Positions 41,776 to 43,847 of a stretch of DNA of 64,000 bases are shown piece after piece. Position 1 is the first letter of the stretch. Each line of letters opens with the position of its first letter. The stretch covers positions 79,853-143,852 of the forward strand of contig JAFSPM010000018.1 in NCBI GenBank assembly GCA_017442855.1, written 5' to 3'. The notes beneath the pieces were generated by a model that saw only the letters and a list, made by a program, of their open reading frames with translations, did not search any database and had not been told where the DNA came from. The position numbers were made by a program, and so were the translations under genes. The stretch comes from Bacteroidaceae bacterium. Its GTDB lineage: Bacteria; Bacteroidota; Bacteroidia; Bacteroidales; Bacteroidaceae.

Positions 41776-41913
41776 TTGACAACCCAGGCGATAGCATACC
41801 TCCTCATTGGCCTCAACGTCCTCACATTCTTTGTCTATGGCATAGACAAGTGGAAGGCCAAGCGTGGCAGTTGGCGCATACCAGAAGCCACCTTGCTTAT
41901 CCTTGCTTACTAG
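41776..41913 (+). pseudogene. Truncated DUF1294-family gene
   Basis: From a TTG just after the lepA stop the frame reads AIAYLLIGLNVLTFFVYGID, then KWKAKRGSWRIPEATLL, and stops after 45 codons at TAG. This is the N-terminal half of a DUF1294 small membrane protein; intact members (about 90 aa) continue with a second membrane helix after LLILA. The break coincides with the first palindrome of the 41903-42122 array. The missing C-terminal half was not found downstream in this window. Confidence 0.75.
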
Positions 41914-42122
41914 TAGTAAACCCATCGCTTACTACTAGTAAACCCACCGCTTGCTACTAGTAAACTACAAAATTCTCTAGAGAATATTTGGACGAGAACC
42001 GTTCTCGCAAGGCACGAGAACCGTTCTCGTTGGCGACGAGCTACGTCCTCGTTTTTTTTCCTAGTTAGGAAAAAATATTTCCCTAGTTAGGGAACAAGTT
42101 TTTGCTAACTAGGCAACCCAGC
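41903..42122. repeat. Array of ten diverse palindromes with 22-bp period
   Basis: Palindromes are centred at 41913, 41935, 41957, 41978.5, 42000, 42022, 42044, 42064.5, 42086.5 and 42109, giving nine intervals of 20.5 to 22.5 bp. Cores: TTACTAGTAGTAA, TTACTACTAGTAA, TTGCTACTAGTAA, ATTCTCTAGAGAAT, CGAGAACCGTTCTCG (twice), ACGAG-N7-CTCGT, CCTAGTTAGG, CCCTAGTTAGGG and TTGCTAACTAGGCAA. The arms differ from unit to unit while symmetry and spacing are kept. About 5-7 bp between palindromes are non-symmetric (for example ACCCA). No coding potential is seen. Confidence 0.9.
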
Positions 42123-42126
42123 AAGC

Positions 42127-42459
42127 TAAAACATGCCGACACTCCACTTTTTCCACTTAACAAACTCACAATATGTTTGTTAACCCAGTGGAGTGTTTTC
42201 CAAACACTCCACCATCACTCCACCATCACTCCACCCCCTCTCCACTGAAAAACAAGGCCTCAGAATTGACACTATGATACACATATCAATGTAAACTTAG
42301 TGTATAGTTGCCCTTCATCCATTAATCCTATCAAATAGTCAATATATGATACTCCATGAAAAGTGGAGAGTTAGTGGAGTGTTTGCAAAACACTCCACGC
42401 TTCATATTAGTTGGAGTACAGTGTGTTATAGGTAAAAAGTGGAGTGACGGCATGTTTTA
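42127..42459. repeat. 333-bp element with 26-bp terminal inverted repeats and CACTCCAC boxes
   Basis: 42127-42152 and the reverse complement of 42434-42459 are identical except for one base; the shared core is AAACATGCCG-N-CACTCCAC. Inside, exact CACTCCAC boxes lie at 42140, 42188 (reverse), 42205, 42216, 42227, 42374 (reverse), 42391 and 42439 (reverse), with variants near 42237, 42363 and 42410. Three boxes are spaced at 11 bp. Two hairpins, 42188-42212 and 42374-42398, have GTGGAGTGTTT/AAACACTCCAC arms, and each matches the other inverted. The middle (42240-42360) is AT-rich. It carries no gene. It resembles an iteron-type origin or a MITE-like unit. Confidence 0.85.
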
Positions 42460-42539: not shown

Positions 42540-42577
42540 TATCTTTGCGTTCGCATAGCTAAAAAGGAGGCATGTGA
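42540..42577 (+). promoter_or_regulatory. Promoter -7 box and SD-start-stop leader ahead of vapE-like gene
   Basis: A perfect TATCTTTG (42540-42547) lies 120 bp upstream of the VapE-like gene ATG; no -33 TTTG at proper distance was seen. In the leader, AAGGAGG (42564-42570) is followed by C and then ATG TGA (42572-42577), a start codon next to a stop. Confidence 0.5.
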
Positions 42578-42659
42578 CATCGAATTAGCCACTCTTTCTC
42601 CCATCCCTTTGCTTTTCTGAAATGCAAACAATTATTTATTTTTAAACACATTTTTTTTA

Positions 42660-43847
42660 ATGATTAAAGACCTCTCTAAGGGGCAGACTGCGGTCTATCA
42701 GATAGAGTGCTTTCTGCAAGAGAACTACGAGTTTCGCCACAACGTGCTTAGCGGCAAGGTGGAATTCCGACAAATTACTAATTTCGACCAAGCAGATGAA
42801 TGGTCGGTTGTTACAGCAAAGGTGATGAACTCCATCGTGCGTAAGGCGAAAATGGAGTATATCGGCAGAAACTCCCCACGAACCGACATCGAGGAGTATA
42901 TCAACTCGGATGCCGTGAAGGAGTATGACCCCATCAGTGATTACCTGACCCACCTGCCTGAATGGGACGGCAAGAACCATGTGGCCGATTTGTTCAACCG
43001 CATTCCCGGACTTACCTCCGAGCAGCTGTCCTGGTGCAGTACCTGGCTCCGTTCAACAGTGGCCCATTGGCTGGGCCTGGATCATTTGCACGGCAATGAG
43101 TGTACACCTATTATGATAGGTCGTCAGGGGTGCGGCAAGACCACCTTTGCCATGAACCTGCTTCCCCCTGCTTTGCGAACCTACTATCTGGATCATATCA
43201 ACTTCGGCAATAAGTTTGATGCGGATATGGCATTGACCCACAACCTGCTGGTAAACATCGACGAGTTTGCCAACATGAAAGGAAGTCAGCAAGGCAAACT
43301 GAAGCACACCCTCTCCAGACAGAAAGTAAACGGTCGTCCAATCTTTGGTAAGACGCAGGAAGACCGCAGGCGCTATGCCTCGTTCCTGGCCACCACCAAC
43401 GACGAGCAACCGCTTTGCGACCCAACAGGCAGTCGTCGATTTATTTGTCTGAGGGTGCCCGACAAGATGATGATCGACAATGTGTCGCCCATTGATTACG
43501 AGCAACTCTATGCTCAAGTGATGTATGAGATCATTGCCTCGCAAACGCCCTATTGGTTTACTAATGCCGAAGAGGAGCGCATCCAGCTGATGAACCAGCC
43601 CTATATAAAGGAGGAGAGTCTGGAAAACATGCTATCCATTTTCTATAAGGTGCCTTCAGGGGAGGAAAAAGGCGAATGGCTGAGCTTGGGCCAAGTGATT
43701 GAGAGCATGCAAGGAACCTATCCTAAACTAAGGAACGACCATTCCACCCGCATCAAGATAGGGCTTGCCCTGCGGCAGATGGGGTGTGTGGCCAAAGAAA
43801 CCAATCGAGGCTTTAAGTATCAGCTGATAGAACTCGAAGCTGCTTGA
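42660..43847 (+). CDS. VapE/VirE-type helicase domain protein
   Basis: A 395-aa protein of the virulence-associated E family, a P-loop NTPase group related to phage and satellite replication helicases. Walker A is GRQGCGKT (154-161), Walker B LLVNIDEF (196-203), sensor 1 SFLATTN (241-247), and an arginine-rich TGSRRF motif follows (256-261). The N-terminal part (1-145) with YDPISDYLTHLPEWDG is typical; a primase domain is absent, and no primase gene is next to it. The C-terminal 70 residues resemble a winged-helix tail (DUF3874-like). It stands alone with its own promoter and terminator, downstream of the iteron-like element. Function is not shown. Confidence 0.85.
   Translation: MIKDLSKGQTAVYQIECFLQENYEFRHNVLSGKVEFRQITNFDQADEWSVVTAKVMNSIVRKAKMEYIGRNSPRTDIEEYINSDAVKEYDPISDYLTHLPEWDGKNHVADLFNRIPGLTSEQLSWCSTWLRSTVAHWLGLDHLHGNECTPIMIGRQGCGKTTFAMNLLPPALRTYYLDHINFGNKFDADMALTHNLLVNIDEFANMKGSQQGKLKHTLSRQKVNGRPIFGKTQEDRRRYASFLATTNDEQPLCDPTGSRRFICLRVPDKMMIDNVSPIDYEQLYAQVMYEIIASQTPYWFTNAEEERIQLMNQPYIKEESLENMLSIFYKVPSGEEKGEWLSLGQVIESMQGTYPKLRNDHSTRIKIGLALRQMGCVAKETNRGFKYQLIELEAA

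Follow-up and report, generated by a model that had tools for sequence, protein, structure and literature searches.

A palindromic element at positions 42127 to 42459 of the 64-kb window (the whole stretch of DNA that was analyzed) precedes a short gene for a VapE-type helicase, and elements of nearly constant geometry recur beside short vapE genes in related genomes. The association with these genes holds at the level of both the locus and the genome, the box word changes from one unit to another, and copies lacking the gene are dispersed elsewhere. From comparison of these sequences, we consider it probable, with some reservation, that a stand-alone replicative helicase of the VapE type recognizes the element and loads there, as at SaPI-type origins, and that copies of the element are dispersed in the manner of MITEs.

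The window element and its surroundings

Repeat analysis of the sequence resolved the element into two inverted half-units facing each other over a spacer, an arrangement that we call type A. The left half-unit (42127 to 42245, plus strand) carries a tip, an outer box at 42140 (+), an inverted box at 42188 (−), and direct boxes at 42205, 42216, 42227, and 42238 (all +, the last with one mismatch). The right half-unit (42363 to 42459, minus strand) mirrors it, with boxes at 42363 (−, one mismatch), 42374 (−), 42391 (+), and 42439 (−). A single half-unit, of approximately 106 bp from the outer box to the last direct box, thus occurs twice in inverted orientation, with 48 bp from the outer to the inverted box, 17 bp from there to the direct boxes, and an 11-bp pitch among the direct boxes. 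An initial annotation made from the sequence alone had described eight exact CACTCCAC boxes in both orientations, and these were recovered inside the element, five on the plus strand and three on the minus strand; the two one-mismatch boxes, at 42238 and 42363, fill out its symmetry. The near-perfect terminal inverted repeats described there (42127 to 42152 against 42434 to 42459, matching at 25 of 26 positions) correspond to the half-unit's tip plus outer box. The 11-bp pitch of three boxes (starts at 42205, 42216, and 42227) and the two hairpins, which are inverted near-copies of each other (42188 to 42212 and 42374 to 42398), were likewise found. The AT-rich middle is the 117-bp spacer (42246 to 42362), which by its composition (68% AT, against 61% for the whole element and 54% for the window) is a candidate melting region. 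As had been stated, the unit is free of genes, with no open reading frame of at least 70 aa overlapping it, and a VapE-type helicase follows, its start codon 200 bp past the element.

CACTCCAC occurs nine times in the window, eight times in the element and once elsewhere; in shuffled windows its mean count was 1.9 and its largest 6, and none of 100 shuffles reached 9. Single-stranded folding of the element gave a z score of −9.2 relative to shuffles, with 0 of 100 shuffles folding as well. On these two controls and the word-blind detector described below, a chance origin was rejected. An RNA gene was also considered and rejected, since an Rfam search of the palindrome returned only two sub-threshold matches to miRNA families.

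The gene downstream (42660 to 43847, plus strand) encodes a short, stand-alone VapE-type AAA+ protein of 395 aa, a putative box binder, with matches to PF05272, DUF5906, and, at its C terminus, DUF3874. Its sole sequence match in the PDB was 7pds, "Similar to D. nodosus vapE" (E value of 1e-12, profile positions 72 to 287), which we take to be an SaPI Rep. The protein is thus an AAA+ helicase related to VapE-named proteins of the SaPI type (PF05272, 7pds). A search with PADLOC gave one weak match of VapE to AriA (E value of 0.00086), and a defence system was rejected. Between the element and the gene lie TATCTTTG (42540 to 42547, plus strand), which we presume to resemble the Bacteroidota −7 promoter element, and a vapE leader (42556 to 42625, plus strand; GCATAGCTAAAAAGGAGGC..., AGCTAAAAAGGAGGC...TTTCTCCCATCCC), which sequence comparison found to be common to several type-A units of the window's clade and which had no match in Rfam. 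Downstream of vapE is a gene pair, Gp49/RelE-like and HTH (NCBIfam matches below cut-off), that probably constitutes a toxin-antitoxin system. A Pfam scan of 10 open reading frames around the window element matched no integrase and no transposase.

The window genome (G000) is 80% complete in 49 contigs, and the nearest titled records are metagenome-assembled genomes (MAGs) from gut and rumen (named Bacteroidaceae, Bacteroidales, or Prevotella-type). On the upstream side, the order is lepA, a 117-bp stretch, a palindrome array, and then the element. The 117-bp stretch (41782 to 41898) is 80% identical to a sequence on contig C20 of the same genome and 79% identical to one on G027:C37, and it looks like a gene start truncated by the array. 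The array itself (41905 to 42121) is made of different short palindromes of 13 to 16 nt, of the types TTACTAGTAGTAA, GAGAACCGTTCTC, and TTCCTAGTTAGGAA, at a pitch of approximately 22 bp. It has 22 BLAST matches within the window genome, including the present one, some with adjoining elements and some without, and similar arrays adjoin several elements of this genome.

Units beside short vapE genes

Searching 158 genomes of the genus at the protein level for short VapE homologues (E value of at most 1e-110) yielded 28 loci in 16 genomes. Of these loci, 27 were analyzed in oriented form; one (L066) was excluded because it had almost no upstream DNA. With unit classes and box words assigned by eye, both half-units lie upstream of vapE in 11 of the 27 units (type A, as in the window), and in 12 a half-unit precedes vapE and its mirror copy lies just past the stop codon (type B); three have degenerate arrays, and one is on a contig that is too short upstream. 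The right half-unit starts 3 to 15 bp past the vapE stop in all 12 type-B units. All three spacing steps (46 to 49, 17 to 20, and 10 to 11 bp, with at most one mismatch per box) are present in 22 of the 27 units, the exact figure varying with which box letters are taken; in the G113C89 unit, the last step is missing. The units use 10 box words, CACTCCAC, CATACCGACA, CACTTCAC, CTCTTCAC, TCTTTCAC, CCTTCACC, CCCTACAC, CCCTTCAC, TCTTCAC, and ACCTACCT, and more than 10 were found in all beside short-VapE genes while the geometry stayed nearly constant.

The only gene family present in all 27 units is vapE. The next family occurs in 7 of 27, and no second family is common to the units (open reading frames of at least 80 aa, with some flanks cut by contig ends). 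The family found near vapE in seven units (G100C10, G006C30, G013C13, G136C5, G011C20, G150C29, and G152C35) encodes proteins of approximately 460 aa, and the one member scanned had no Pfam match. In G136C5, G108C26, G023C12, and G013C13, another type of repeat, TTTTCCCTG, lies upstream of the promoter-like motif, frequently accompanied by an inverted copy resembling CAGGGAAAA. In a midpoint-rooted tree of the 27 unit proteins and 17 hand-picked, more divergent ones, all type-A proteins and the one unassessable unit formed a clade (support of 1.0) nested in type-B lineages, so the compact form seen in the window looks derived.

To score loci independently of the word, we used a detector based on spacing only (an inverted copy 45 to 50 bp on, a direct copy 15 to 20 bp on, and another 9 to 12 bp on, with at most two mismatches in total). 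Among the best 80 of 464 candidate short-VapE loci of the genome collection, 46 matched. The spacing had been set after inspection of the 27 units, whose genomes also supply many of the better-matching loci among the 80. The controls gave 0 of 80 for shuffled loci (each shuffled once, by single nucleotides within 100-bp blocks), 0 of 29 for lepA loci, 0 of 24 for distant-VapE loci, and 1 of 17 for viral-contig VapE loci. All 67 matches in the 46 loci adjoin vapE: 9 loci have them only upstream of the gene, 20 only downstream, and 17 on both sides. Positive records that are not labelled as MAGs include Segatella copri Indica, Prevotella sp. P5-92, Xylanibacter ruminicola Ga6B6, Prevotella ruminicola KHT3, and Prevotella sp. 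P6B1 (L283, L287, L321, L341, and L345, respectively). The detector was silent in the remaining 34 of the 80 loci, which counts against our reading, as do the degenerate arrays in 3 of the 27 units. At L369, two inverted half-units are separated by approximately 0.9 kb, and tandem TACTTTGCTCC repeats lie close by, an arrangement like that of an element with an enlarged center.

The 24 distant VapE proteins are 34 to 40% identical, and 22 of them have open frames of 676 to 818 aa. Only one of these loci (L045, on contig C47 of the window genome) has a flanking CCTTCACC double box: its open frame of 402 aa, at approximately 37% identity, has an 81-bp CCTTCACC element on each side, and these were missed by the detector, which is insensitive to small elements. 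A palindrome array sits between the upstream element and the gene at this locus. A repeat-count test (an 8-mer at least four times in 500 bp) was positive at 24 of 25 short-VapE, 2 of 29 lepA, and 12 of 24 distant-VapE loci; it is weaker than the detector, because distant-VapE loci score too and the top word is not the box at a few short-VapE loci. By the detector's result at the distant-VapE loci, the element family is not a feature of VapE genes in general.

We then asked which part of VapE goes with the box. Pairwise distances averaged 0.21 for the AAA+ core, 0.46 for residues 1 to 95, and 0.49 for residues 296 to 395. Among 23 units with box words assigned by eye, the 21 pairs with the same box were 74 to 100% identical in the C-domain, the 232 pairs with different boxes were no more than 69% identical there, and the core failed to separate the two. 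G023C12 and G136C2, with different boxes, are 92% identical in the core and 52% in the C-domain, and the paralogues G136C5 and G136C2 of one genome are 77 to 95% identical up to approximately residue 320 and near 50% after it. That the N-terminal part has a rate of evolution matching that of the C-terminal part weighs against our reading, although it does not track the box and its partial Mantel correlation was nil. Other results weigh against this reading as well. The partial Mantel correlation of the C-domain given the core was weak (0.20, reached by 68 of 2,000 permutations), and in 31 held-out loci (465 pairs), box similarity correlated with the C-domain (rho, 0.59) only slightly better than with the core (rho, 0.52). 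Exceptions in this set are L286/L288, with C-domains 90% identical and boxes two letters apart, and L313/L325, with an identical box and C-domains 49% identical. The box word thus follows the C-terminal domain fully in the 23 units but only partly in the held-out loci, and on this pattern the C-terminal domain is the likely box reader.

Solo copies and the places they occupy

In the window genome, elements without vapE lie on contigs C12 (CTCTTCAC, upstream of metK), C15 (at 143 kb), C25, and C44 (the last three CCTTCACC); the C12 solo resembles the vapE-linked C15 unit. Pattern searches covered 157 genomes, presumably the 158 less G113, and their counts include matches at vapE units, so that genomes with three to five matches are less telling. 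The pattern CWCTYCACN{38,42}GTGRAGWG had at least three matches in 12 of 15 genomes with short vapE and in 0 of 142 others (Fisher P value, 1.5e-15). The other three vapE-positive genomes had two (G013) or none (G011 and G152, whose vapE units have degenerate arrays), 15 of the 142 genomes without short vapE had one or two, and a reversed-pattern control gave zero to two per genome. Counts were highest in G100 (29), G023 (26), G136 (24), and G108 (18). Among the matches listed for G100, there were 13 distinct places, 10 of which were either on contigs that lack a short vapE or separated from one by more than 40 kb.

The contrast was weaker for CCTTCACCN{36,42}GGTGAAGG, which matched 13 of 157 genomes, 6 with short vapE (G135, 13 matches; G108, 8; G000, 4; G150, 4; G023, 3; G136, 1) and 7 others (G097, 4; G012, 2; five with 1). 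The four CCTTCACC half-unit-like repeats of G097, a genome with no short vapE, count against our reading; they may derive from another lineage. The very different word CATMCCGACA was found in 3 of 157 genomes, exactly those with that vapE box (G121, G100, and G027), as solos at G121:C17 and C92 and at vapE units in the other two. Also unfavorable to our reading are solos in assemblies without a short vapE of matching box, namely, G008 (CACTCCAC), G023 (CACTTCAC), and G027 (CTCTTCAC; 90% complete). In G135, where the box of the resident vapE is unreadable, seven contigs together carry eight near-identical left half-units; their flanks are mostly different, some pairs being alike on one side. 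Most of the solos examined are compact and consist of two halves.

The place upstream of metK is occupied by different element families in G000 and G121 and by none in G027 and G100. Next to a palindrome array beside a gene for an RNase_T-type exonuclease, three different families are found in G000, G100, and G027, the one in G027 being a small element of the TTACAACC type. In G100, an array and an element lie downstream of a tRNA-Lys gene, and in G027 both are absent from this place. The units G121C104 and G027C1 are 87 to 100% identical per 100 bp from approximately −600 (within the array) to approximately +1300 (past the vapE stop) and 67 to 85% identical outside this array-element-vapE segment, which suggests that the segment was transferred or converted; since the place is orthologous downstream, this need not have been an insertion. 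G006C30 and G100C10 are 93% identical over 7.7 kb, and their alignment shows no downstream border.

No target-site duplication or clean empty site was found at the element places compared, and some solos occupy orthologous places in two species; we count both against our reading, and the latter means that not all solos are recent. One such pair, G100:C1:310063 and G027:C2:359081, differs mainly in one inner half-unit, which suggests half-unit exchange. Beside the G100 copy, a ACACTTCAT-type element lacks approximately 110 bp of its center in G100. On the distribution described here, the elements are dispersed and probably mobile. The initial annotation had offered a replication origin with iterons bound by its own initiator or, alternatively, a mobilized palindromic unit. 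Of the former, the comparisons support boxes matched to the neighboring VapE (spacing, word change, and association by locus and genome); of the latter, they support a dispersed unit with solo copies in several genomes. It had named copies far from vapE-like genes with unconserved box spacing as evidence against its reading; distant copies do occur, but their spacing is kept.

Mechanism, alternatives, and related systems

In the mechanism that we propose, the C-terminal domain (DUF3874) of VapE would recognize the 8-bp box, and one VapE oligomer would load on each half-unit, so that two inverted half-units would receive two facing oligomers. These putative oligomers would melt the DNA between them, which is the AT-rich spacer in the window and vapE itself in type B. 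Opening or replication of sites by VapE, both in cis and in trans, may underlie the spread of the element, with cutting and joining supplied by some separate nuclease or recombinase. More tentatively, the type-B units could represent a class of single-gene mobile elements whose sole dedicated gene is an initiator helicase, with the solos as non-autonomous members and spread by helicase-dependent opening or re-replication without a transposase of their own; we regard this as possible rather than probable.

It is unlikely that these are ordinary MITEs, with ends bound in trans by a conventional transposase and vapE as a passenger. Inverted ends, several non-coding copies, and the near-identical copies in G135 do accord with MITEs, as do the different families at one place near metK and near the exonuclease gene and the solos of G008, G023, and G027 that have no short vapE to match. 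However, spacing and box word follow vapE at the locus, copy number follows the presence of vapE in the genome, the gene-carrying units have only vapE in common (27 of 27, against 7 of 27 for the next family), and no target duplication was seen. The near-identical copies on seven contigs of G135 would also be unusual for a regulon, and we find it very unlikely that the boxes are operators through which VapE or a repressor controls vapE and other genes. The right half-unit just past the vapE stop in all type-B units is in a poor position for an operator, although the left half-unit of type B lies between a promoter-like TTTGCA motif and vapE, the window element lies just upstream of this motif, and the solos examined are intergenic or beside genes.

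Another reading takes the elements for relics of integrated phage satellites or plasmids, in which the vapE unit would survive as a replication module and the solos would be leftovers of decayed copies. Phages and satellites do encode proteins of the VapE type, and 451 phage records contain distant relatives at an E value of 1e-5. We nevertheless judge such an origin to be improbable, since no close relative was found in viral contigs (IMG/VR; best segment, 32% identity), the best identity was 40% in the phage set and 39% in the plasmid set, no neighboring gene family is common to the units, and most of the solos examined are compact, with two halves. A phage element as such was rejected, as no close relative was found in the IMG/VR, phage, or plasmid sets at the search sensitivities used.

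Our preferred reading, a loading site for the VapE-type helicase, has parallels in several known systems. In plasmid origins of the iteron type, direct repeats spaced by approximately one helical turn adjoin an AT-rich region and the gene for an initiator. The element shares the one-turn direct repeats, the AT-rich region, and an adjoining putative initiator gene but is chromosomal, with an inverted two-half architecture and a putative initiator of helicase type. As summarized in PMC7581432, SaPI Rep and SCCmec Cch2 are AAA+ initiator helicases encoded beside short repeats, with C-terminal specificity and possible loading of two hexamers. Here, too, an AAA+ helicase gene lies beside short repeats, and C-terminal specificity and two-oligomer loading are putative. 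Unlike in those modules, there is no second conserved gene, gene-less copies of the site are scattered, and half-units flank vapE in 12 of 27 units; an origin role is putative. No integrase or satellite gene accompanies the element as in SaPIs (10 open reading frames scanned; no family common to the 27 units).

REP elements, dispersed short palindromic repeats with one cognate family of RAYT transposase genes according to PMC2817692, are likewise dispersed palindromes tied to one gene family. In contrast, the linked gene here encodes a helicase homologue with no nuclease domain in Pfam, not a Y1-type tyrosine transposase, and the elements are 80 to 330 bp with multi-box arrays. BrickBuilt MITEs of Porphyromonas, as described in PMC4596501, share inverted-repeat ends, internal tandem repeats, and intergenic copies with our elements; their repeat is a 23-nt minisatellite, whereas the box word here changes with the resident helicase at nearly fixed spacing. 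HMP_4078 of Bacteroidetes is a 109-bp palindromic candidate structured RNA often found close to D5 N-terminal and phage integrase domains (PMC8040213); to judge from this description, such an element may have been sighted there before. Among the matches listed from open-licence literature, none described this element family.

The present comparison links a dispersed cis element to an orphan family of helicases from Prevotella-type bacteria of the gut and rumen. The natural series of altered recognition words at near-fixed spacing makes the co-evolution of initiator and origin directly testable. Should our reading prove right in every part, one chromosome would carry several accessory origins, or the elements would be dispersed by the helicase with no transposase involved.
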